Assembly: GCA_947501325.1 (NCBI GenBank)
Contig: CANMVC010000001.1
Span: forward strand, 744,001-808,000
Length of the DNA: 64,000 nt
Direction of reading: 5' to 3'
Source of the DNA: an uncultured Sphingomonadaceae bacterium
GTDB lineage: Bacteria > Pseudomonadota > Alphaproteobacteria > Sphingomonadales > Sphingomonadaceae
Made by a program: the position numbers and the translations under genes. Of this stretch, positions 815-11,211 are shown one piece after another (the stretch's first letter is position 1; the number at the start of each line of letters is the position of its first letter). A model generated the notes under the pieces. It saw nothing but the letters and a program-made list of their open reading frames with translations. It was not told the DNA's origin and did not search any database.

Positions 815-937
815 ATGTCGAACGTAAATATTCAAAACCAAGTTCTCGCCGCTTTCGCCGCTCTTTTCTCTGCTGCTGTTTTGATCAGCGCTAGCGTTGG
901 CCCGGCAATCCAAAACACCGCTTCTTTCATCGCTTAA
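815..937 (+). CDS. Tandem membrane microprotein, copy 1 (40 aa)
   Basis: A 40-residue frame with a good Shine-Dalgarno (AAGGAA at 803-808) before the ATG. The core NIQNQVLAAFAALFSAA is followed by VLISASVGPA and a short polar tail, so most of the protein is one hydrophobic helix. Copy 2 (969-1088) repeats it almost residue for residue, and copy 3 (1123-1242) keeps the pattern with more change. Three tandem copies, each with its own ribosome site, and conservation of protein over spacer argue that these are real genes. The family is not recognised. Options are a small membrane subunit, a peptide that modifies a larger membrane complex, or a toxin-like peptide. The sigma-54-type promoter upstream suggests co-regulation with flagellar genes. 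Confidence 0.75.
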   Translation: MSNVNIQNQVLAAFAALFSAAVLISASVGPAIQNTASFIA

Positions 938-968
938 TCACTCGCCCAATCTCCTAAGGAAACTTATC

Positions 969-1088
969 ATGACCGCAAATATTCAAAACCAAGTTCTCGC
1001 CGCTTTTGCTGCTCTTTTCTCCGCCGCAATCATGATCAGCGCTAGCGTTGGCCCAGCTGCCCAGCATAGCGTATCGCTGATCATCTGA
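969..1088 (+). CDS. Tandem membrane microprotein, copy 2 (39 aa)
   Basis: Second copy, with Shine-Dalgarno AAGGAAA at 956-962 and ATG at 969. The protein shares NIQNQVLAAFAALFSAA exactly with copy 1 and then IMISASVGPA against VLISASVGPA. The DNA in this core is almost identical to copy 1, including third codon positions, so the duplication is recent. The C-terminal tail (QHSVSLII) has diverged. A longer frame from 897 passes through the tail of copy 1 and is not the likely start. Function unknown; one membrane-spanning helix is predicted from the hydrophobic run. Confidence 0.75.
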   Translation: MTANIQNQVLAAFAALFSAAIMISASVGPAAQHSVSLII

Positions 1089-1122
1089 TTAGCGATCCTC
1101 CCCCAAGTTAAAGGATCTTAAA

Positions 1123-1242
1123 ATGCCCCGTAATTTCTCTGCCCAAATCTCCGCCGCCATCGCCGCGTTTGTCTGCTCTGCCATTGCCATCGGTGCCAGC
1201 GTAGTCCCTGCAACACAAAATGCTGTCGCCCTTATCGTCTAA
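1123..1242 (+). CDS. Tandem membrane microprotein, copy 3 (39 aa, diverged)
   Basis: Third copy, with Shine-Dalgarno AAAGGA at 1110-1115 and ATG at 1123. It reads MPRNFSAQISAAIAAFV, then CSAIAIGASVVPA and a tail NAVALIV. Length, the small-residue helix, the A-S-V-x-P-A motif after the helix, the Q-N in the tail and the hydrophobic C-terminus all line up with copies 1 and 2, though DNA identity is much lower, so this is the older duplicate. It contains a Cys in the helix that the others lack. Function unknown. It is probably co-transcribed with the other two, since the gaps are only 31 and 34 bases. Confidence 0.7.
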   Translation: MPRNFSAQISAAIAAFVCSAIAIGASVVPATQNAVALIV

Positions 1243-1271
1243 CCGGAATCATCCGCTTTCATCCCGCTCTG

Positions 1272-1844
1272 CTACTGGCAAGCTTTCAGAAATTCGACCA
1301 GCGCATCCCCCGATCCCTTTAGATGAATGCTGAATTTATTACCGTTGAGATTTACATAGGCCCGGTTACCCTGCGCCAACGCCGGAAACAGAACATGGCT
1401 GTTAGGCAAATAGAATCTTGGCATATGATAGCCCTCCCCCTCAAGATTGACGGGCGCCATCCGGGCTAACAATCCTATAGACCGCCCATCGTCCACACGT
1501 ATGGTGAAACCAAAATAATCTTCTGCCGCCAGTTCCGGTGGTGTCGCGATAATATTATTGGCAATCCGCACGCTATCATCTTTTTGTTTGTGACAGGCCA
1601 TAGTCCACAATTGATTATCGGTTTCAGGTACCTGAAAGGCTAGAAACGGCTTTCCGTCAATATTGCGATAATGCCAGACCATGCCAAAAGCCTGCCCGGC
1701 ATCAGGATAATCCTCTCGCGAGGGAATAACAGGCTTTACGGCCGACTGATCCGCTGCGATTGGCGCCTGCGCCGAAAGCGGAGTGAAAGTAACGGCAAGG
1801 CCAGCAGCGGCCGCCAGGATGACGCGGATATTGTTTTCTATCAT
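1272..1844 (-). CDS. Secreted/periplasmic hypothetical protein
   Basis: A 190-residue protein with a clear signal peptide: basic start, hydrophobic stretch VILAAAAGLAVTFTPLSAQA, and a likely cleavage after AQA near residue 27. The mature part is mixed alpha/beta with one Cys in the middle (MACHKQ) and one at the very C-terminus (FLKACQ), which could form a disulphide in the periplasm. The ending LVEFLKACQ resembles a group of alphaproteobacterial exported proteins of unknown function, but no named family is recognised. It is convergent with the microprotein array. Confidence 0.7.
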   Translation of the reverse strand: MIENNIRVILAAAAGLAVTFTPLSAQAPIAADQSAVKPVIPSREDYPDAGQAFGMVWHYRNIDGKPFLAFQVPETDNQLWTMACHKQKDDSVRIANNIIATPPELAAEDYFGFTIRVDDGRSIGLLARMAPVNLEGEGYHMPRFYLPNSHVLFPALAQGNRAYVNLNGNKFSIHLKGSGDALVEFLKACQ

Positions 1845-1904
1845 GTACAGTGATTTAGCATCGGAACCTGCCCGTTGTTAGCCCGAGATGGACTCAAATC
1901 GGTG

Positions 1905-2567
1905 CTATCTCACCGGCTGTATCCCCAAGGCGCTCTTGCCACTTCTCTCTCTTTCATCAAGCCGCAGGGCGGCGCTGACAAACAGCGCGGCACCGAATAG
2001 TTCCAATGTTTCTTCAGCAAAGCGCGCCGCTTCCACAACATCCAGCACGACCGCCAAACCAATTACCGCCAACGCAGCCGCAATAGCCGGACGGCCGTCA
2101 TCAGCATTAAACCAAGCGAATATCCGCGACCCGTAGCCGATCCGATGAATCCACAAGACGAGAATAATGGACAGCGCCAGCAACGCCACCCCGACCAACA
2201 GCAAAGCATCGAGAGCAACCAGCGCGCGATAGGCGATCATCACCAGATCCTGTCCACCATCAAGCTCTCCGCCGCCCGCCATCGCCGGCATGGCAAAGCC
2301 CAGATGACGGGCACCAAAGCTCAACTCGCTGAGACAGGCGAGCAGCGCAAGGCTGCAGCAAGCCAAGCCCATCCCCGTCCGGTAGAGCCGCCGGTATAGC
2401 CCGATGACCAGTGCCGTCAGGAACAACAGCGCAGCCGCCATTTCCACCACGCCATCCTCCTTGAAAAACGGTCCGTGACGAAACGCCTCGGACCCTATCG
2501 CCAGCATCAAAATGCCAAGCCCAGCGGCCGTGTAAGCCATGAGTTCGTGTCGGAGCGCGATCATCAT
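1905..2567 (-). CDS. Multi-spanning membrane protein, unknown function
   Basis: About 220 residues with roughly six hydrophobic segments, beginning MMIALRHELMAYTAAGLGILMLAIG and including VVEMAAALLFLTALVIGLYRRL and AAALAVIGLAVVLDVVEAARFAEE. The frame is open back to 2645, but the first 26 residues (Cys-rich, not membrane-like) look like leader sequence, so the start at 2567 or 2564 is preferred. No Shine-Dalgarno decides it. The acidic FKEDGVVE and DVVEAARFAEE regions next to membrane segments may be functional. No family name can be given. Confidence 0.6.
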   Translation of the reverse strand: MMIALRHELMAYTAAGLGILMLAIGSEAFRHGPFFKEDGVVEMAAALLFLTALVIGLYRRLYRTGMGLACCSLALLACLSELSFGARHLGFAMPAMAGGGELDGGQDLVMIAYRALVALDALLLVGVALLALSIILVLWIHRIGYGSRIFAWFNADDGRPAIAAALAVIGLAVVLDVVEAARFAEETLELFGAALFVSAALRLDERERSGKSALGIQPVR

Positions 2568-2693
2568 GACAGTTTCATGACAGTTTTGTGAAATGTAAAC
2601 GGCCCTTGGCGTGAATTTCAGGCAGCCGCCGCAAACCAATCTCACCCCACCGGATTCAAGCGCAACGGACCAGCCGCCACAAGAGCATCACCC

Positions 2694-3746
2694 CTAGTCC
2701 TCCACCGGCTTGTTCCACCATTGCTGCCCGGTTTGCTCGGCACTCTTCCCGCGCAGCGCGTCAATTTCCGCCTGCCGTTTTTTCAGATAAAGCTCCCGCG
2801 TCGCCGCATAGGGATCGTTGGTGTCGCGCAATTCCTGCAGCTGCTCGTCCTGCTGGGCGCGGATGTCGAGCGAGGTGATGACCCCGGACGGAAGTGTATA
2901 GGCGAGCTGATTAAACGGCTTGCCCACGGCAAAGGGCAAGACCGACAGATCGACGACCCGGCCGAACATATCGCGGATCGTTGTCGGTCCGATCAGCGGC
3001 AGAAAAAGAAAGGCGCCCTGCTCCACACCATAATAGCCCAGCGTATTGGCAAAGCCGTTAATCCGCCGCGGCAAGTTAAACGGCGGTTTCTTGGCGACAT
3101 CGACAAAGCCGGCGACACCGATGGTCGAGTTGATCGCGAACCGGCCGAGTGTCTCCATCGCCTTGCCGGGCTTGAGCTGCAACAGATAGTTCAGGAAGTT
3201 GACCGGCTCGCCCAGATTGCTGAGAAAGTTGATCAATCCCGTGCGCACCGGGCTGGGCAGCGCCTTTTCATAAGCCTTGGCAACTGGGCCAACCACCGCA
3301 TCATCGACATTCTGAATGGCACCAAATGTCTCGGCATTCAGCGCCTGCAACGGATCGCTTTTGGGCGCGCGCGGCCGCGCGGTTACAACAATCTCGTTAC
3401 CGTCCGCCTGATCCAGCGCGGGATCGGCAGCATTGGGGTCCACCGGCAAAAGCGGATCATCCGCTGGCACAGGTTGCGGGTTACCCGCCGGGTCCAGGGG
3501 TACCGGCCAAGACACTGGCGGCGGCGATTCCGGCTCGGGTTGCAGCGCCGCTGCGGCGACCGCCCCGAATAATTGCTCGCTGGCCGACAGCGCGACAAGC
3601 GGTGCTGGTACCGCCGCTGACACAGCCATAGGCTGACCATCTGCCGCAGCCGGATCAAGGCCGAGAGTATCGATAGTCGGCGGGGGCGGTGCGGTTACCG
3701 GCGCATTTACCAGCGCCATTGCAATCGCAAATTCCGAAAAACTCAA
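2694..3746 (-). CDS. mlaA: MlaA/VacJ-family outer-membrane lipid-asymmetry protein
   Basis: The C-terminal two thirds match the MlaA (VacJ) family, which removes phospholipid from the outer leaflet of the outer membrane and passes it to the Mla retrograde pathway. Family landmarks are the NVDDAVVGPVAKAYEKALPSPVR, FLSNLGEPVNFLNYLLQ, GRFAINSTIGVAGFVDVA and TLGYYGVEQGAFLFLPLIGPTTIRD segments. The first 110 residues are unlike the family: very rich in Pro and Ala, with no lipobox Cys, so lipid anchoring is not evident. The upstream start is a TTG at 3746; an ATG nine codons in is an alternative. The Mla ABC-transporter genes are not next to it. Confidence 0.85.
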   Translation of the reverse strand: MSFSEFAIAMALVNAPVTAPPPPTIDTLGLDPAAADGQPMAVSAAVPAPLVALSASEQLFGAVAAAALQPEPESPPPVSWPVPLDPAGNPQPVPADDPLLPVDPNAADPALDQADGNEIVVTARPRAPKSDPLQALNAETFGAIQNVDDAVVGPVAKAYEKALPSPVRTGLINFLSNLGEPVNFLNYLLQLKPGKAMETLGRFAINSTIGVAGFVDVAKKPPFNLPRRINGFANTLGYYGVEQGAFLFLPLIGPTTIRDMFGRVVDLSVLPFAVGKPFNQLAYTLPSGVITSLDIRAQQDEQLQELRDTNDPYAATRELYLKKRQAEIDALRGKSAEQTGQQWWNKPVED

Positions 3747-3910
3747 TCCTTTGGCCTATCTTTTGTTCGTTCCGGTCGAGGAACAGGGGTCCGGGAGGGC
3801 GGCACGTCGGTCTTGGGTCTATAGAACGATGCGCGGCGGAGCAAGACAGCTTGTCCGGCCGGCGCGGCGAGCCGTGAAATCGATGCGAGCGATAGATAGC
3901 GAACGCAGGG

Positions 3911-4432
3911 TCACAGCAAAGGCCCTTTTTCTTTTCTGTGACCTTCCGCGCCATGCCCCCTGTCCGCCTCTACCGGGGCAACCCGATCGAGATGGGATAA
4001 CGCCGCCAAAAGCGCTGAATTATCAGGCTTTTTCTGCGTCCCGACATATTTGCCGCTGCGCATGACGGGGCGGTAGCTGCCCTGCCGGATGCGCTGGAAC
4101 AGCCCGTCTAGTGTGACCTTTGGCCGGGGCGTACCCGGCGCGCCCAATATGCTGTCCCAGACGGCGGCAAAGCTCTTCGCATGGGGCTTGCGGCGCAGCC
4201 GATAGGCGCTCTCCCGGCTCATCCCCACGCGCTCCGCCGCCCTTTTGACGCAGCGCGTTTCGGCGAGATAGCCCAGAAAATCCGCCTGTCGCAGCGGCGT
4301 CCAGCCATCCCGCCGCACGCGCAGCTCTGCGGGCGTAAAGGCGGGAATGCGCGAGATGCGACGGTTCTGGACCACGGCGCTGCGCGGATCGGGTTTCGGG
4401 GCGGGCGGGCTATGGGGGCGATGGTTTGTCAT
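3911..4432 (-). CDS. Helix-turn-helix domain protein
   Basis: A 173-residue basic protein. After a Pro/Arg-rich N-terminus, residues about 45-90 (WTPLRQADFLGYLAETR, then CVKRAAERVGMSRESAYRL) form a clear helix-turn-helix: the A-x-x-V-G-M-S-x-x-x-A-Y-x-L pattern is typical of DNA-binding recognition helices. The rest, with RQGSYRPVMRSGKYVG, has no known domain. It is probably a small sequence-specific DNA-binding protein of the type common in sphingomonads; its target is unknown. It stands alone on the minus strand, with 163 bases of featureless DNA to the next gene. Confidence 0.65.
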   Translation of the reverse strand: MTNHRPHSPPAPKPDPRSAVVQNRRISRIPAFTPAELRVRRDGWTPLRQADFLGYLAETRCVKRAAERVGMSRESAYRLRRKPHAKSFAAVWDSILGAPGTPRPKVTLDGLFQRIRQGSYRPVMRSGKYVGTQKKPDNSALLAALSHLDRVAPVEADRGHGAEGHRKEKGPLL

Positions 4433-4551
4433 GGAATCGATTAAGGCATAAATCGACCTGTGTAGGAAAGCGGTTTTTTTCGGGAACCGGATTATGCGGC
4501 GGCGTAGTTGCTGCGCGATATTGGATCCTGAAATTCATTCAGGCTGACGAA

Positions 4552-4576
4552 AGAGAGAGAGAGAGAGAGAGAGAGA
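4552..4576. repeat. (AG)12 dinucleotide repeat
   Basis: An uninterrupted run of about twelve AG units lies in the gap between the HTH gene and the thermonuclease gene. Runs of this length are prone to slippage. It is about 120 bases upstream of the HTH gene start and about 195 bases upstream of the thermonuclease start, so it could affect only promoter spacing, not a reading frame. Confidence 0.95.
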
Positions 4577-4656
4577 ATTGAAATGCGGAACCACATAACC
4601 ACCCTCTCCCATGCGGAGGGGCAAGGCAGACTTGGCCGACAGGCCTAGTCGCAGTC

Positions 4657-4695
4657 GGTGAGGGGCTCTGCCCTTTGTCGCGAAGAGCCCTCACC
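4657..4695. repeat. Long inverted repeat, hairpin former
   Basis: GGTGAGGGGCTCT pairs with AGAGCCCTCACC across a 14-base loop, with one bulged G. There is no T run on either side, so it is not a standard terminator. A CCTCTCCC...GAGGGG element lies just upstream (about 4604-4620), like the one at 8250. Together they look like the small palindromic repeats common between genes in this group. The remainder of 4433-4771 holds nothing else recognised. Confidence 0.6.
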
Positions 4696-4771
4696 GCGTT
4701 TCACTAAACAGACATCAGGGAGATACATGCCTTTTAGCCTTTCCTAAATTTCTTTCCGGTAAATTTTCCCG

Positions 4772-5290
4772 ATGAGCAGGAACACCGTCACACCCTTTCG
4801 CCCGCTGCCCAAGGATATCGGCCGTTCGACCATGGGCTGGCCCGCTTTTGCGATTATCACGCTGGCGGCCTGTTCCGCCCTGTTTGCCGCCATCTGGTTC
4901 AGCGGCGGGCCGCCCGCCTCGCACAGCGCCGCGATTGATCCGCATCGCGCCAGCTTTGGCATTTGCTTTGGCGCGGTCCGCACCAATTGCGTGGTCGATG
5001 GCGATACATTCTGGTTTGAAGGGCGCAAGATCCGCATCGCCGATATCAACACGCCGGAAATTTCGAGCCCCGGCTGCGCGGCGGAAAAACGTCTGGGCGA
5101 GCGCGCCAAGATGCGGCTGCTCCGCTTGCTCAATGCAGATGGATTTGACCTTGAGTCAATCGACCGCGATCAGGACCAATATGGCCGCGACCTGCGCATC
5201 GTGACACGCGGCGGCCAAAGTCTGGGCACGCAGCTGGTCGACGAAGGGTTGGCGGAAGAGTGGCAGGGTTTTCGGCGGGATTGGTGTTAG
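4772..5290 (+). CDS. Membrane-anchored thermonuclease-like (SNase) protein
   Basis: 172 residues with one N-terminal membrane segment (about 22-43) followed by a staphylococcal-nuclease fold. The motif VDGDT at 75-79 and IRIADINTPE at 87-96 supply the calcium-binding Asp residues and the catalytic Arg/Glu pair of the family, and YGRDLRIV supplies the third active-site Arg. Such proteins cut DNA or RNA outside the cytoplasm; the anchor would place this one in the inner membrane facing the periplasm. Two Cys pairs may form disulphides. It is convergent with the nrd operon and has GC-rich codon use, unlike the deaminase that follows. Confidence 0.85.
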   Translation: MSRNTVTPFRPLPKDIGRSTMGWPAFAIITLAACSALFAAIWFSGGPPASHSAAIDPHRASFGICFGAVRTNCVVDGDTFWFEGRKIRIADINTPEISSPGCAAEKRLGERAKMRLLRLLNADGFDLESIDRDQDQYGRDLRIVTRGGQSLGTQLVDEGLAEEWQGFRRDWC

Positions 5291-5329
5291 GTCGGGTGAA
5301 CAAACGGCTCGGTATATTTAGGAAACTGT

Positions 5330-5351
5330 CACCGTAATTCCACCGTAATTC
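5330..5351. repeat. Perfect tandem 11-base direct repeat
   Basis: CACCGTAATTC occurs twice back to back, at 5330-5340 and 5341-5351. It lies between the thermonuclease stop and the AT-rich deaminase island, where base composition changes, and so may mark the edge of an insertion. Confidence 0.8.
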
Positions 5352-5372
5352 GAGGTGGTTGTAGGTAGTGAT

Positions 5373-5451
5373 GGCTGTTTGAAGAATTTTTACAGGACCA
5401 AGAAAGCATTTTAATTACTTGAATTATAGCGCTAGTTTTTTGAGAACAGCC
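5373..5451. other. AT-rich gap with a 7-base inverted repeat
   Basis: GGCTGTT at 5373-5379 pairs with AACAGCC at 5445-5451, and the flanking A/T tracts could extend the pairing imperfectly. The 180-base gap 5291-5473 has no convincing reading frame. It is the only untranslated stretch adjoining the deaminase cassette, so it is where a structured RNA, if there is one, would lie. That is speculation. Confidence 0.3.
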
Positions 5452-5473
5452 TAAACTTCAAAATAATCAAGAG

Positions 5474-5638
5474 CTATCTGAAATTTACTTTCTTTGAATT
5501 GGAACTAGAAAAGTATGAAAGCCCTCGGTCTGCAGATGACCTAAGTTCGGTAACATAGGTTTTCACCCGCTCTTTTGGTAATTTGTCGACAGCCTCTTTG
5601 TCACTTGCCATTTGCAACTTGATTAGCTTTTTCGACAT
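5474..5638 (-). CDS. Small basic protein downstream of the deaminase (54 aa)
   Basis: A 54-residue frame with a strong ribosome site (AGGGG at 5650-5646, 7-base spacer) and ATG at 5638, only 18 bases after the deaminase stop and on the same strand. It starts MSKKLIKLQMASDKEAVDKL, continues PKERVKTYVTEL and ends SSNSKKVNFR. It is rich in Lys/Arg, has no membrane segment or Cys, and its first 35 residues could form a helix. No family is recognised. Its position suggests a partner of the deaminase: an adaptor, an inhibitor, or a nucleic-acid-binding accessory. The AT-rich codon use matches the deaminase and not nrdB, so the two probably arrived together. Confidence 0.65.
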   Translation of the reverse strand: MSKKLIKLQMASDKEAVDKLPKERVKTYVTELRSSADRGLSYFSSSNSKKVNFR

Positions 5639-5656
5639 TAGTTATCCCCTGTTTTA

Positions 5657-7156
5657 TCAACCTATCGAATCTTTAGCCAATTTAACTACTTTATCAAGTT
5701 GGTTTGCGACGACCAGTTCAAATTCAAGACGAGCTACACCAAATGCGGCTCCAACAGGTATTGCTTCTGTCGGCAACCATTCAGCTATAGCGCCATAAGA
5801 ATCTTTACGTTTTCTGTAATTAAAAACTCTTTGATATAACGTCGGTGAAATACCTTTAAATGCTCTAAAAGAAACTCTGTGATCTTTGTCAGATAAATCG
5901 GATCGGTCATCGCTTTCTGAAACTATCTCGCGGTGATATAAGCTTGCCGTTAAGCTTTTGGGATATGGTTCGATATACACAACCTCTTTTATTCCAGAAG
6001 AGATGATATGCCTTGCGCATATATGACATGGATATGTCGTACAGTACAAAGTCGTATCTTTAAGCGGCCTACCAACCATAGCTGCTTGGGTTATTGCGTG
6101 CATTTCAGCATGTACCACTCGACCGAATTCAATAAGGTTTCGTATTCGGGCGTCAGACATGATTTCTTTGTAATTACCGTGCAACAGCATTTCCGATAAT
6201 TCGTCTGTTGTTCGATCACCATTAATGATCTCGCTACTTTTCATAACTTCAATTAGTTCGCTTATCGACCTCTTGATCTCATGAAAGTTTGGATCATGTT
6301 GTTCAACTTTATCGCGATTATCTTCAATGCTATCTCCGCGACCCTCAAAAAAGAAACCTCCTTTAGGCATAGGCACTTCATTGCATCCAGTTGCAACAAG
6401 AGTTCCATTTTGATCAACGATTACAGCGCCAACTTGTCGAGATAAATCACATGACCGTAATGCTGTGGCCTTAGCGACAAACATCATATATTCATCAAGG
6501 CTAGGTGTTACAAACGGCTCGCCGAAAACCAATTCTATGAAGCGCTTCACCTGCTCAGAAATATCTTTCTTGGTATCGATGAAAAAATCCGCTTTTGGAA
6601 AAGTATCACGTACACTTTGACCCGTATCACCAGAACCTTTTTGATCCTTGTCTATTAGCTCGAGTGCATCATTGTGATGGCTATCTCCAATTGCTTGATG
6701 GCGCGTTCGCGCAATTTTATTCGCTAAGTTTGATTTGCGATCATCCAATGGAGAATAGACAGCTACGGTGTAATAGTTTCTGGCATAGATTTGATCGAGG
6801 ACCTCAACCTCTTTTGGATTTTTGAGAGAATCCAAAATGAAAGCAGTTGAAGAAGGAGTTTCATCGGAACTACGACCCGCTCTGATTGATGTCACTATAA
6901 GTGAAGCTACCCCTGCACCGTTATCTGAATTTTCACGCAAAAGGTCGCCAGCAGACATCAAATCGAGCGTACGCGTGTAAGAGTCTTCCGATTCCTTGAT
7001 ATCCAACACTTCCGCAATGGCGGAACTGACCTTTATTTCCTTATATTTGTAGCGAACTACTGTGAGTTGTGCAGCAATTTGTCGCTTCACCTCTGTAAGG
7101 TCAGTTCCAGTGGCACACACCAATCCTACGTAAAGATCGGGACGCTCAACTTCCAC
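5657..7156 (-). CDS. Anti-phage-type dCTP/dCMP deaminase (AvcD/DCD-like)
   Basis: 499 residues from a GTG at 7156. The frame is open to 7351 inside nrdB, but GGAG at 7167-7164 with a 7-base spacer supports the GTG, 4 bases after the nrdB stop. Domains: an N-terminal nucleoside-kinase-like domain with the variant P-loop GLVCATGTDL (about 11-20), then a cytidine/deoxycytidylate deaminase domain from about residue 230. The zinc site is H349-A-E351 plus P376-C377-H-I-C380, so the catalytic residues are intact. This two-domain layout matches defence proteins that deaminate dCTP or dCMP on phage infection and starve replication of nucleotides. Codon use is AT-rich against GC-rich neighbours, suggesting transfer. 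Described AvcD systems carry an upstream inhibitory RNA; here nrdB occupies that place. Confidence 0.88.
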   Translation of the reverse strand: MEVERPDLYVGLVCATGTDLTEVKRQIAAQLTVVRYKYKEIKVSSAIAEVLDIKESEDSYTRTLDLMSAGDLLRENSDNGAGVASLIVTSIRAGRSSDETPSSTAFILDSLKNPKEVEVLDQIYARNYYTVAVYSPLDDRKSNLANKIARTRHQAIGDSHHNDALELIDKDQKGSGDTGQSVRDTFPKADFFIDTKKDISEQVKRFIELVFGEPFVTPSLDEYMMFVAKATALRSCDLSRQVGAVIVDQNGTLVATGCNEVPMPKGGFFFEGRGDSIEDNRDKVEQHDPNFHEIKRSISELIEVMKSSEIINGDRTTDELSEMLLHGNYKEIMSDARIRNLIEFGRVVHAEMHAITQAAMVGRPLKDTTLYCTTYPCHICARHIISSGIKEVVYIEPYPKSLTASLYHREIVSESDDRSDLSDKDHRVSFRAFKGISPTLYQRVFNYRKRKDSYGAIAEWLPTEAIPVGAAFGVARLEFELVVANQLDKVVKLAKDSIG

Positions 7157-7160
7157 CCCC

Positions 7161-8219
7161 CTACTCCGCAGCAACCCCCGCCTGCTCAAACATATCTTCG
7201 CCGTCATCATCATTGTCGGTCGCTTCGATGCCGATAATCTTATTGCCTTTGCGCTGGTCAAAGCTGTCCCAGACTTCGTTCCAATTGCCTTTGGTCGCGC
7301 CTTTGGAATATTCGGTCGCGCGGGTTTCGAAGAAGTTGGCGTGCTCGACACCGTTGAGCAATGGCGCGAGCCATGGCAGCGGGTGGTCTTCGATCATGTA
7401 GATCGGTTGGAAACCCAGCTGCGCCAGACGCCAGTCGGCGATGTAGCGGATATAGCGCTTAATCTCTTTCGCGGTCATGCCGGTCACCGGACCGTCGCTA
7501 AACGCCAGATCGATAAACGCATCTTCCAGCCGCACGGTTTTCTGGCAGCAGTCGATAATTTCTTCTTTAACATTCTTGGTCAGGCAATCGCGTTCCTGCA
7601 CAAATGTGTGGAACATTTTGACAATGCCTTCGCAGTGCAGGCTTTCATCGCGCACGGACCAGGACACGATCTGCCCCATGCCCTTCATCTTGTTGAAGCG
7701 CGGGAAGTTCATCAGCATCGCGAATGACGCAAACAGCTGCAGCCCTTCGGTAAAGCCGCCGAACATCGCCAGCGTCTTGGCAATATCTTCGTCCGTATCG
7801 ACACCGAATGTACCCATATAGTCATGCTTGTCCTTCATCGCCTCATATTCGAGGAACATGGAGTACTCGCTCTCCGGCATGCCGATCGTATCGAGCAGGT
7901 GCGAATAAGCTGCGATGTGGACGGTTTCCATGTTGGAAAAGGCGGTCAGCATCATCTTGATTTCGGTCGGTTTGAACACGCGGCCATATTTGTCGTGATA
8001 GCAATCCTGAACCTCGACATCGGCTTGCGTGAAGAAACGGAAGATTTGCGTGAGCAGGTTGCGCTCATGCTCGGTCAGCTTCTGCGCCCAATCGCGGCAA
8101 TCCTCGCCCAACGGCACTTCTTCCGGCATCCAGTGAATCTGCTGCTGCCGCTTCCAGAAGTCATAGGCCCATGGATATTCAAAGGGCTTGTAGGTTTTCC
8201 GTGCTTCCAAAAGTGACAT
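7161..8219 (-). CDS. nrdB: Class Ia ribonucleotide reductase, beta subunit
   Basis: 352 residues. It holds the di-iron tyrosyl-radical cofactor that starts ribonucleotide reduction in NrdA. All ligands are visible: D67, E98, H101, E158, E192 and H195, with the radical Tyr at Y105 (motif METVHIAAY), so this is a Tyr-radical enzyme and not a Mn/Fe or Tyr-less variant. The acidic C-terminus (DNDDDGEDMFEQAGVAAE) is the part that docks to NrdA. It lies 134 bases after nrdA with two hairpins between, and is followed after 4 bases by the deaminase gene. Base composition is GC-rich, like the rest of the chromosome and unlike that next gene. Confidence 0.97.
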   Translation of the reverse strand: MSLLEARKTYKPFEYPWAYDFWKRQQQIHWMPEEVPLGEDCRDWAQKLTEHERNLLTQIFRFFTQADVEVQDCYHDKYGRVFKPTEIKMMLTAFSNMETVHIAAYSHLLDTIGMPESEYSMFLEYEAMKDKHDYMGTFGVDTDEDIAKTLAMFGGFTEGLQLFASFAMLMNFPRFNKMKGMGQIVSWSVRDESLHCEGIVKMFHTFVQERDCLTKNVKEEIIDCCQKTVRLEDAFIDLAFSDGPVTGMTAKEIKRYIRYIADWRLAQLGFQPIYMIEDHPLPWLAPLLNGVEHANFFETRATEYSKGATKGNWNEVWDSFDQRKGNKIIGIEATDNDDDGEDMFEQAGVAAE

Positions 8220-8249
8220 TTTTTCCGATACTCCGCTCTATTTCCAAAC

Positions 8250-8272
8250 CCTCTCCCGCTTTAGGGGAGAGG
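8250..8272 (-). repeat. Hairpin in the nrdA-nrdB gap, proximal to nrdB
   Basis: CCTCTCCC pairs with GGGAGAGG over a 7-base loop, 31 bases in front of the nrdB start. There is no T run on the nrdB side. In the messenger it could protect or define the 5' end of a processed nrdB transcript. Confidence 0.5.
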
Positions 8273-8307
8273 ATTATGATTGCACCTTTAACTTACTGAA
8301 GAAAACG

Positions 8308-8339
8308 GCCTCCTCCCAAAAGGAGCAAAGGGAGGAGGC
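8308..8339 (-). terminator. Strong hairpin after nrdA, partial terminator or attenuator
   Basis: On the minus strand GCCTCCTCCC pairs perfectly with GGGAGGAGGC (10 pairs, 12-base loop), followed by CGTTTTCTTC. The short interrupted T run suggests incomplete termination, which would let NrdA and NrdB levels differ. It starts 14 bases past the nrdA stop codon. Confidence 0.5.
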
Positions 8340-8353
8340 AGTGGGCAAAGGCT

Positions 8354-10414
8354 TTACTGACAGGCCAGACACTCGTCATAGTCGGTGGTGCCCTGCGTGG
8401 TCATCAGCTCGACCTTTTTCGGATCGAGCGTATTGTCCGCCTCGACGCCACTGTTCACCGCTTCTTCGTTATTGGCGAAGCCGGCGCGCTGGATCGATTT
8501 CGAACGCAGATAATAGAGCGACTTGATGCCCAGCTCCCATGCGCGGAAGTGCAGCATCAGCAGGTCCCATTTGTCGACATCGGCCGGAATGAACAGGTTC
8601 AGCGACTGCGCCTGATCAATATATGGGGTGCGGTCAGCGGCGAGTTCAAGCAGCCAGCGCTGGTCAATCTCGAAGCTGGTTTTATACGTGTCTTTCTCGT
8701 CTGCACTCAGGAAGTCGAGATGCTGGACACTGCCGCCCTGTTCCAGGATGCTGTTCCAGACATTATTGCTGTCCTTCGATTTTTCCTGCAGCAATTTTTC
8801 CAGATGCGGGTTCTTGACGACAAAGCTGCCCGAGAGCGTCTTGTGCGTATAGATATTCGCCGGGATCGGTTCGATGCAAGCGGATGCCCCGCCGCAGATG
8901 ATCGAAATCGACGCGGTTGGCGCAATTGCCATTTTGCAGGAAAAGCGCTCCATCACGCCCTGGTCTGCGGCATCGGGACACGGTCCGCGTTCCTTGGCGA
9001 GCATCATGCTGGCTTCTGAAGCCTTGGCTGAAATATGCTTGAAGATTTTCATATTCCAGGATTTTGCCAGCGCGCTTTCAAAGCCGAGGCCACGGGCCTG
9101 CAGGAAGCTGTGATAGCCCATGACGCCCAGACCAACACTGCGTTCGCGGCTGGCGCTATATTTGGCGCGCGCCATTTCGTCCGGTGCGCGGTCGATATAA
9201 TCCTGAAGCACATTGTCGAGGAAACGCATGATGTCCTCGATAAAGTCCTTGTCTCCGCTCCACTGATCCCAGGTTTCCAGGTTCAGCGAGGACAGGCAAC
9301 ACACTGCCGTCCTGTCCTCGCCCAAGTGATCGCGACCCGTTGGCAGAGTGATCTCGGAACACAGATTGGATGTCGAAACTTTCAGACCCAGATCGCGGTG
9401 ATGCTTGGGCATCATCCGGTTCACCGTGTCGTTGAAGATGATATAAGGCTCACCGGTGGCGAGACGCGTCTCGACCAGTTTCTGGAACAGCGAGCGCGCA
9501 TCAACCGTGCCGCGCACTTCACCGGTCTTGGGTGATTTCAGATCCATCTCCCGGCCATCACGCACCGCTTCCATAAACGCGTCGGTCAGCAATACGCCGT
9601 GGTGCAGGTTGAGCGCTTTCCGGTTAAAGTCACCGGACGGCTTTCTGATTTCCAGAAATTCTTCAATTTCCGGATGATCGATATCGAGATAGCAAGCCGC
9701 CGAACCACGTCGCAGCGAGCCCTGAGAGATTGCCAGCGTCAGGCTGTCCATCACACGGACGAACGGAATGATGCCCGATGTCTTGCCGTTCAGGCCAACC
9801 GGCTCGCCAATGCCGCGCACAGCACCCCAATAGGTGCCGATGCCGCCGCCCTTGGAGGCCAGCCAGACATTCTCGTTCCAGGTGTTGACGATGCCGCCGA
9901 GGCTATCGTCAACGCTGTTGAGATAGCAAGAGATCGGCAAACCACGACCGGTGCCGCCATTGGACAGCACAGGCGTTGCCGGCATGAACCAGAGCTTGGA
10001 GATATAATCATAAAGCCGCTGGGCATGCTCCTGATCATCCGCATAGGCATCGGCCACACGCGAAAACAGGTCCTGAAAACTCTCGTCAGGAAGCAAATAG
10101 CGGTCTTTCAGCGTTTCCTTGCCAAAATCGGTCAGCAAATCATCGCGCCCTTCATCCTGCACAATTTTGAACCGGCGCTTCTCGACGCTATGGCTGTCGC
10201 GTTCCGCTTTCAGCTCTTTCTCGTCATTCTGCTTTTCCGCAGCCGCTTCAGATTCAGCTTTCTTGCTGACCTCCGGCTCTTTTACCGGCGCTTTGTTTGC
10301 TGCGCCTTCGGATTTATCTTTTGGCGTCTCCAACACTTCAGCGCCCATGTCACTCTCACTCATATCTCTATCACTATTCCCGGTATCTTCCCGGCTATCT
10401 CTAAAATCCATCAA
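8354..10414 (-). CDS. nrdA: Class I ribonucleotide reductase, alpha subunit, without ATP-cone
   Basis: 686 residues; the catalytic subunit that reduces ribonucleotides to deoxyribonucleotides. Visible active-site residues are the redox pair C163 and C372/C373, the N350-L-C352-S-E354 catalytic triad region with the thiyl-radical Cys, the loop PTASISIICGGASACIEPIPAN, and the C-terminal CLACQ that passes electrons from thioredoxin or glutaredoxin. The first 75 residues are acidic, Lys/Glu/Ala-rich and apparently disordered, and no ATP-cone is present, so overall activity is probably not switched off by dATP through that domain. The start at 10414 is one of several possible (another ATG lies at codon 18). 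A LexA-type box lies 84 bases upstream. Confidence 0.96.
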   Translation of the reverse strand: MMDFRDSREDTGNSDRDMSESDMGAEVLETPKDKSEGAANKAPVKEPEVSKKAESEAAAEKQNDEKELKAERDSHSVEKRRFKIVQDEGRDDLLTDFGKETLKDRYLLPDESFQDLFSRVADAYADDQEHAQRLYDYISKLWFMPATPVLSNGGTGRGLPISCYLNSVDDSLGGIVNTWNENVWLASKGGGIGTYWGAVRGIGEPVGLNGKTSGIIPFVRVMDSLTLAISQGSLRRGSAACYLDIDHPEIEEFLEIRKPSGDFNRKALNLHHGVLLTDAFMEAVRDGREMDLKSPKTGEVRGTVDARSLFQKLVETRLATGEPYIIFNDTVNRMMPKHHRDLGLKVSTSNLCSEITLPTGRDHLGEDRTAVCCLSSLNLETWDQWSGDKDFIEDIMRFLDNVLQDYIDRAPDEMARAKYSASRERSVGLGVMGYHSFLQARGLGFESALAKSWNMKIFKHISAKASEASMMLAKERGPCPDAADQGVMERFSCKMAIAPTASISIICGGASACIEPIPANIYTHKTLSGSFVVKNPHLEKLLQEKSKDSNNVWNSILEQGGSVQHLDFLSADEKDTYKTSFEIDQRWLLELAADRTPYIDQAQSLNLFIPADVDKWDLLMLHFRAWELGIKSLYYLRSKSIQRAGFANNEEAVNSGVEADNTLDPKKVELMTTQGTTDYDECLACQ

Positions 10415-10497
10415 AGCCCCCTAATCAAACTACCAAACCATTTCTATTCACCAGCCATGAAAGCCAGCCGTGTTTTGGGTTTAATACCGGGCCATTT

Positions 10498-10512
10498 GTT
10501 CTTGTAATGTTC
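10498..10512 (-). promoter_or_regulatory. LexA-type SOS box before nrdA
   Basis: GTTCTTGTAATGTTC (GAAC-N7-GAAC on the coding strand) is an exact match to the alphaproteobacterial LexA operator GTTC-N7-GTTC. It is 84 bases upstream of the nrdA start in a non-coding region, a normal operator position. It would make the nrdA-nrdB-deaminase-small ORF unit damage-inducible. Chance matches to eight fixed bases do occur, so position is the main support. Confidence 0.6.
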
Positions 10513-10873
10513 GACTCGGACAATCTCTTGCGGCCGAGCCGTTGAACATAACATTTTTATAGCCAGGGTGGGCATTTATTTTTGCCCAAAAACCCGAAAA
10601 AATTCCTTGCGGTTTAAGCCAAAGGGAGCCGTCCACCGAGTCGGTGTTATCGGCGTGCGATACTATACGTTGGTGTGCCCCCTTGGCCTAACCACAACCT
10701 ATAGTGGCTGAAACAGAATTATATGCAAGAGGGTAAATGACATTTTAACGACTCTGTTCGTCGTATAAATGAATCGCTTCATCGACAGCCGATTCATGCT
10801 GCAGTGCAGCGACGCGTGGACCTGCTAAGAGCGCAGCATAAGGCAATAGCAGCGGTCAAATTTTACAAATAAT

Positions 10874-10904
10874 TTATCCACAATTCATGCACAGGTGTGG
10901 ATGA
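10874..10904. promoter_or_regulatory. Pair of DnaA-box-like sites upstream of nrdA
   Basis: TTATCCACA at 10874-10882 is a perfect consensus DnaA box. TGTGGATGA at 10896-10904 is an inverted copy with one mismatch. In some bacteria DnaA controls nrdA, which would fit, but these sites are 460 bases from nrdA and could also belong to the divergent side. No cluster large enough for a replication origin was seen. The rest of 10415-11325 has no confident gene. Confidence 0.45.
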
Positions 10905-11211
10905 CCCTTTTATGACACCAGATGTAGTGTTTGAATGATTCAAAGCCGTGAAATTTAATTTCAGCTCCAAACACGAGAATCCGCTTCACCACGGTTTCCA
11001 TTGGCTGTGCGGCCTTTATTTTTCCACCATCCCCATAGCCCGCCGTTTCAACCATAAAATAAAAGGTTTGACCATTGCAATAATGACCCGTTGATATTCT
11101 CGATAAAATGCCGGTCTGGCGACATGGAACCAGTACCTGTGAGCCGTGATGATAGCTACACGCGTTGTCGACAAAACACGGCTGGGCATGGCTGCGCAAC
11201 TCCACTGCCAC
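10885..11211 (-). CDS. Possible small protein in the nrdA-mreB gap
   Basis: A 108-residue frame from GTG at 11211 with no Shine-Dalgarno. Its composition is protein-like (for instance NGQTFYFMVETAGYGDGGKIKAAQP) but includes many Cys and His, and no family is recognised. It overlaps the second DnaA-like site. It could be a decayed gene fragment or a chance frame. Recorded because the 900-base gap otherwise has no gene. Confidence 0.22.
   Translation of the reverse strand: MAVELRSHAQPCFVDNACSYHHGSQVLVPCRQTGILSRISTGHYCNGQTFYFMVETAGYGDGGKIKAAQPMETVVKRILVFGAEIKFHGFESFKHYIWCHKRVIHTCA

Follow-up and report, generated by a model that had tools for sequence, protein, structure and literature searches.

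Anti-phage dCTP deaminases of the family NF041025 carry an N-terminal domain that resembles P-loop kinases. In the V. cholerae type III toxin-antitoxin system AvcID, the small RNA AvcI is encoded upstream of avcD (PMC9455884); it binds the deaminase AvcD, inhibits it and is lost upon infection or when transcription stops (PMC10511110; also PMC12409362). Chromosomal defense hotspots and islands, for which an E. coli pan-genome study is an example (PMC10121019), are places where fixed flanks hold exchangeable defense cargo. Among the matches listed by full-text literature searches, as represented by titles and the beginnings of abstracts, no nrdB-linked deaminase, no nrdB defense hotspot and no protein partner of anti-phage deaminases was described.

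The locus analyzed here lies in a window of 64,000 nucleotides from an uncultured Sphingomonadaceae bacterium (Table 1). Its deaminase resembles DCD (NF041025; PADLOC dCTPase) in matching over its full length, in joining a predicted adenylate-kinase-like N-domain to a deaminase domain and in carrying HAE and PCxxC, but differs in its placement at the tail of nrdB, in the segment GLVCATGTDL, which is without the Walker A lysine, and in a clade-specific 54-aa companion. With AvcID it shares the deaminase family and a toxin needing an inactive state; in contrast to AvcID, only 4 bases lie upstream of the deaminase, where an AvcI would be looked for, and a protein-coding ORF lies downstream. The fixed flanks and exchangeable cargo are those of a hotspot or island, except that the cargo behind nrdB often begins on the same strand and no more than 150 bases from the stop codon of a housekeeping gene; no duplicated nrdB tail was found, and we noticed no integrase in the scanned cargo. 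On these sequence comparisons, we think it probable that the deaminase and the small ORF behind it (orf54) form a two-gene anti-phage cassette in a variable defense-cargo slot that is read from nrdB. This reading builds on four observations: the family and predicted architecture of the deaminase, the counterparts of its companion in relatives, the different genes that congeners have where the window has this segment, and the preference of the cargo for one strand.

Table 1. Positions in the window of the features discussed in the text
Feature	Positions	Strand	Basis or remark
SNase-domain gene, convergent, far slot flank	4772..5290	+	Pfam SNase
Segment without counterpart in G397, present slot occupant	5341..7156	.	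blastn
54-aa companion ORF (orf54)	5474..5638	-	counterparts behind deaminases of the clade
Anti-phage dCTP deaminase (DCD/AvcD type)	5657..7156	-	499 aa, GTG start
Shine-Dalgarno core, nrdB stop and GTG start	7154..7167	-	sequence
nrdB, ribonucleotide reductase small subunit	7161..8219	-	NF007186, 588 bits; 3′ end is the fixed slot edge
Terminator-like hairpin, nrdA-nrdB gap	8299..8339	-	15/16 short gaps; covariation
nrdA	8354..10414	-	NF006577, 1030 bits
LexA-type box GAAC-N7-GAAC before nrdA	10498..10512	-	kept in 24/25 loci

An earlier note, made from the sequence alone, had called the deaminase anti-phage-type, and the profiles agree: the protein matches NF041025 with 422 bits (cut-off 400) over model positions 2-434 of 437 and the PADLOC dCTPase model with 489 bits (E 8.6e-147). 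HAE (residues 349-351) and PCHxC (376-380) are invariant across seven aligned deaminase sequences, and we take HAE...PCxxC in the window deaminase to be the zinc deaminase motif. The predicted structure (mean pLDDT 77.8, pTM 0.73) suggests an adenylate-kinase-like N-domain, for which 3h0k was the best such Foldseek match (E 5.8e-6) and the adenylate-kinase-related 3lw7 another, and a C-domain with a modeled fold like that of dCMP/dCTP deaminases (Foldseek match 2w4l, E 1.2e-8). In the alignment of seven, GLVCATGTDL belongs to the N-domain and is presumably the segment where the Walker A motif, whose canonical form has a lysine, would sit. Family and predicted architecture together place the protein among putative anti-phage enzymes of the DCD/AvcD kind. 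Although the mechanically called ORF opens farther upstream, within nrdB, the GTG at 7156-7154 was picked as the start because aligned relatives fit it.

The deaminase is sparsely distributed. It occurs in 23 of 397 genomes of the family, the window's own included, and is absent from nine other congener genomes that were searched whole. Deaminases occur at 22 further sphingomonad loci. Within flanks that reached at most 1.5 kb, ten of these loci lie beside uvrA, nine of them convergent and one (L020) behind uvrA on the same strand, and two lie behind nrdB (G329, which is S. wooponensis, and G369, where the frame is broken). With a Novosphingobium MAG (L157) and the window itself, this makes four sphingomonad genomes in which nrdB and the deaminase adjoin. 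When the best 80 of 161 relatives were considered, nrd genes were near the deaminase at L156 (the G329 locus), L157 and L229, with a very weak nrdA-like match at L225; since so few of these wider loci lie near nrd genes, the link to nrdB is recurrent in the clade and not general. L229, a Rubritalea MAG from another phylum, carries nrdB, nrdA and the deaminase on one strand (901-9312), followed on the same strand by a gene that, on inspection by eye, resembles one for restriction-modification. The uvrA-side deaminases (L003-L010, L013 and L020) sit at the uvrA 3′ end, which is perhaps a second defense slot at an SOS-type gene. Klebsiella plasmids of about 4.6 kb also carry the deaminase.

If the deaminase is only occasionally found behind nrdB, what lies there in related genomes? 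The 22 congeners fetched of the 26 with an nrdB match (G394, G403, G405 and G406 were left out) all lack a deaminase near nrdB (tblastn at 1e-5 over about 3.5 kb downstream, shortened in L056 by the end of the contig). In 21 of them other genes stand directly behind the nrdB stop, mostly on the same strand. Of 21 loci compared with the window by blastn, 19 matched at this place and two, L099 and L103, did not; in all 19, nucleotide homology breaks off at the nrdB stop, at a distance of -2 to +10 bases. In the close relative G397, homology stops at window position 7157 and resumes at 5340, and the slot holds a 158-aa protein together with an HD protein that weakly matches the PADLOC dGTPase model (8.8e-08). 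The SNase-domain gene on the far side of the slot is also present in G397 and in L100-L105. Conserved flanks around differing cargo in related genomes, the mark of a defense hotspot, are found at nrdB. The GC content of the slot segment is 41.1%, compared with 53.6% for nrdB; this difference and its absence behind nrdB in the 22 congeners make the deaminase look like recent cargo. The survey covered nrdB 3′ flanks, and variable here means variable between relatives at nrdB.

The cargo tends to be oriented with nrdB. Within the genus (n = 22, window included), the first ORF to start in the 150 bases behind the stop shares the strand of nrdB in 20 cases, is on the opposite strand in one and is missing in one (binomial p 2e-5), and in other genera (n = 67; 27 of the best nrdB matches and 40 from further down the same list, a non-random choice) the corresponding counts are 38, 17 and 12 (binomial p 0.006), both p values being indicative because the ORF calls are mechanical and the genomes related. 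We rejected the idea that cargo integrates site-specifically at the 3′ end of nrdB, since the 21-base nrdB tail had no second copy at up to five mismatches in 22 stretches of 4.5-19 kb. In G329 the deaminase is preceded by a stretch resembling the nrdB tail (IDMLEHARVAAV), which looked like a duplicate but gained no further support.

Part of this cargo is recognizably defense-like. Among 29 distinct cargo proteins of the genus, Pfam cut-offs were reached for C5 methylase, NaeI endonuclease, HD, HNH, PIN, DUF5343 with Swt1-like HEPN, DUF3800, TraB-like, HTH and DUF7946/7947, with SIR2-like (L089, just below) and AAA (L104) matches falling below them. As 13 of the 29 match nothing in Pfam at E 0.01 and another four have matches below the curated cut-off only, the term defense is justified for some of the cargo and not for all. 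Scanning 31 cargo proteins of the genus with PADLOC gave matches to 78 families, and the 25 listed, each matching two members, are nearly all methyltransferase models. Ten cargo proteins from other genera, chosen for their defense-like look and so indicating occurrence and not frequency, gave AbiTii (two), TIR, AAA/OLD-like (two), SIR2, DarT, HD, DUF6119 and one blank in Pfam. In PADLOC, a set of ten that overlapped in part with these gave Aga/SIR2, DarT, AbiTii and OLD/Gaj/AriA-like models, and the TIR protein matched ThsB1 (332 bits). Some clusters occupy the slot in more than one genus: NaeI endonuclease in 5 genomes, a methylase that by eye is MT-A70-like in 4, and AbiTii, SIR2, HD with a partner, and TIR in 2 each. 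One cluster of 5 genomes and one of 4 are without names and could represent flank genes or spurious ORFs. At L087 and L256, which belong to two genera, the nrdB slot contains an HD protein (weak dGTPase match) and a partner of 150-158 aa, a possible second dNTP-targeting defense at this position.

How would a cassette in this position be expressed? The nrdB stop codon (TAG, 7163-7161) is followed by four G's and then the deaminase GTG. This reading of the sequence upholds the 4-base spacing and the tight nrdB-deaminase coupling claimed in the earlier note, whereas its "perfect" Shine-Dalgarno sequence is a GGAG core at 7167-7164, which is good but not perfect. Since 4 bases leave no room, a promoter cannot lie between the two genes; one inside nrdB is possible. 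Sigma-70 and terminator scans gave results that were overall at chance level. Judging from the junction, translation of the deaminase would be expected to be coupled to that of nrdB. Cramped upstream space is not unique to the window, as a mechanical survey of 76 deaminase loci (median upstream gap 154.5 bases, but 33 in six loci of the clade) found a same-strand ORF within 100 bases upstream in 11 of the 76. An Rfam search of window positions 5000-11000 gave no match up to E 1.

The earlier note had proposed that a LexA-type box precedes nrdA and that one transcript runs from there through the deaminase. The box is well supported. On the nrdA strand it reads GAACATTACAAGAAC, a perfect GTTC-N7-GTTC, and because the bare pattern occurs genome-wide at chance level (83 matches, and 80 for the reversed control), it was judged by conservation. 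It lies 96-124 bases upstream of the extrapolated nrdA start, with a varying N7 spacer, in 24 of 25 loci (the window, 22 congeners, G329 and G369, the last being the one without it). The same form stands upstream of lexA (L138), recA (L149) and uvrA (L141) in the window's genome, the ORFs having been named by eye. These are among 20 of the 83 places that were picked by eye for inspection, mostly for their AT-rich spacers; some of the 20 fall within ORFs and are probably chance matches. In addition, a palindrome at 10915-10930, which we take to be NrdR-box-like, has 2-3 mismatches to the consensus and recurs at about -501 to -518 from nrdA in 13 of the 23 loci whose upstream sequence is long enough (900 bases scanned). 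Given this palindrome and the SOS-type box, nrdA may have more than one regulator.

Between nrdA and nrdB is a hairpin that the earlier reading overlooked, as it did the variable slot behind nrdB. The arms GCCTCCTCCC (8339-8330) and GGGAGGAGGC (8317-8308) enclose a loop and are followed by CGTTTTCTT. Of the 16 nrdA-nrdB gaps below 320 bases, the set considered here, 15 contain a GC-rich stem of 9-10 bp with GTTTT and more T's after it. A script that required a perfect stem detected 14 of them, and the one in L085, which has a G-U pair, was recognized by eye; the hairpin is absent in G329, and nine other loci have gaps of over 320 bases. Across 13 distinct sequences (L058 and L060, which have the hairpin, and L072, which does not, were left out), 130 of 130 cells are paired. 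Both sides change in three of the pairs, which 2 of 500 shuffles reach, and the covariation score was reached by 0 of 500; the number of further pair types was equaled or exceeded in 350 of 500 shuffles. Its sequence pattern looks like an intrinsic terminator or attenuator, which may be leaky. The loop carries GCTCCTTT in 13 of 13 aligned sequences and is partly complementary to an AAAGGA-type sequence some 20-30 bases downstream, so that a pseudoknot or attenuator is possible. At L053, L063, L064, L065 and L067-L069 the nrdA-nrdB gap is 470-1644 bases and contains other ORFs, for example acyltransferase-like and membrane proteins (named by eye).

A single SOS-induced transcript of nrdA, nrdB, the deaminase and the small ORF, through which damage or infection would raise dNTP synthesis and a dCTP-destroying enzyme together, would draw on the kept box, on its likeness to those before lexA, recA and uvrA and on the tight nrdB-deaminase junction. 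Against it, the conserved and covarying terminator-like hairpin stands between nrdA and nrdB, which makes SOS control of the deaminase doubtful, no exact GTTC-N7-GTTC box lies near nrdB among the 83 genome matches, and most relatives of the deaminase are without nrd linkage. We therefore consider such a transcript unlikely, and SOS-type control can be assigned firmly to nrdA alone. Less likely again is an enzymatic partnership, in which the deaminase is kept beside ribonucleotide reductase because its amount has to match that of NrdB if dCTP is to be balanced or depleted. The four sphingomonad adjacencies, the one-strand arrangement in the Rubritalea MAG and the HD protein with a weak dGTPase match in the slot of two other genomes would fit this idea. 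However, unrelated cargo fills the same slot elsewhere, deaminases of other sphingomonads are beside uvrA far more often (10 of 22) than beside nrdB (2 of 22), and in the wider set of 80 nrd genes are nearby at only the few loci named above. The pairing thus looks positional.

That the enzyme is instead a housekeeping dCMP/dCTP deaminase feeding dTMP synthesis, with no part in defense, seems to us very improbable. Its modeled C-terminal fold is that of a dCMP deaminase, but a housekeeping enzyme would hardly be missing from the nrdB region of 22 congeners and from nine whole congener genomes, be present in so few genomes of the family, score above the cut-off of an anti-phage equivalog and have a low GC content.

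The small ORF may explain how the deaminase is kept in check. It starts 18 bases past the deaminase stop, as the sequence reads directly and as the earlier note had stated, but it is not unique to this genome. Seven deaminase relatives have at least 49% identity (L156-L161 and G205); six of them carry a 52-71-aa ORF in the same place, and G205 has no clear copy. With a profile built from five relatives and 7,099 small ORFs as the search set (which contains some genomes twice), the L157 copy (E 1.7e-6) and, with a weak score, orf54 (E 0.027) were the two best unseen sequences.

Farther afield, a small ORF with the motif W[PS]x[WY][KMVILR], which was picked after the ORFs had been viewed, starts between -40 and +80 bases from the deaminase stop in 33 of 78 loci (those of the 80 with enough sequence, some being close relatives), compared with 1 of 1,560 mononucleotide-shuffled controls. 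A profile of this WPxWK form added L198 at the right place (4.3e-8), and a restricted search added L177. The E. coli member is WP_000021256.1, a 57-aa "hypothetical protein" that begins one base past the deaminase, and the two genes are near an integrase and tRNA-Sec. Fourteen WPxWK members matched no NCBIfam family and gave one weak villin-headpiece match in Pfam. Membership of orf54 in the WPxWK form was rejected, as it is missing from the profile hits and scores E 4.2 in the restricted set, with an hhalign probability of 0.4 on a scale of 0-100. Because the profiles do not link them, we treat the clade form and the WPxWK form as positional counterparts. As there is no upstream room for an AvcI-type RNA, orf54 is the best candidate regulator of the deaminase.

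Our favored reading, a cassette in a slot read from nrdB, suggests the following sequence of events. The cassette would arrive by recombination between conserved flanks, with nrdB on one side and SNase, HTH or MlaA genes on the other. Without a promoter of its own, it would depend on the nrdB mRNA, where start-stop coupling would permit its translation, and nrdB would supply steady expression, since it appears to serve the sole ribonucleotide reductase found (a whole-genome search with the NrdJ family profile matched only the place of nrdA, below the cut-off; class III was outside this search). The deaminase would be held inactive, most likely by the orf54 companion, until infection releases it to deaminate dCTP/dCMP. 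SOS control from the nrdA box would reach the deaminase only if transcription continues through the hairpin behind nrdA.

More tentatively, in what we regard as somewhat short of an even call, the tail of nrdB, an essential gene of dNTP synthesis, could serve in Sphingomonadaceae as an expression slot for defense genes, through read-through and translational coupling, and small proteins of the WPxWK form and the divergent sphingomonad form could control anti-phage dCTP deaminases alongside or instead of AvcI RNA. If so, the gene behind nrdB in sphingomonads would offer a direct route to new defense genes, the more so as those 13 of 29 cargo proteins match no Pfam family. The small ORF would likewise be a testable protein partner of anti-phage deaminases in many phyla, including in E. 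coli, and would bear on how toxic deaminases are kept off.
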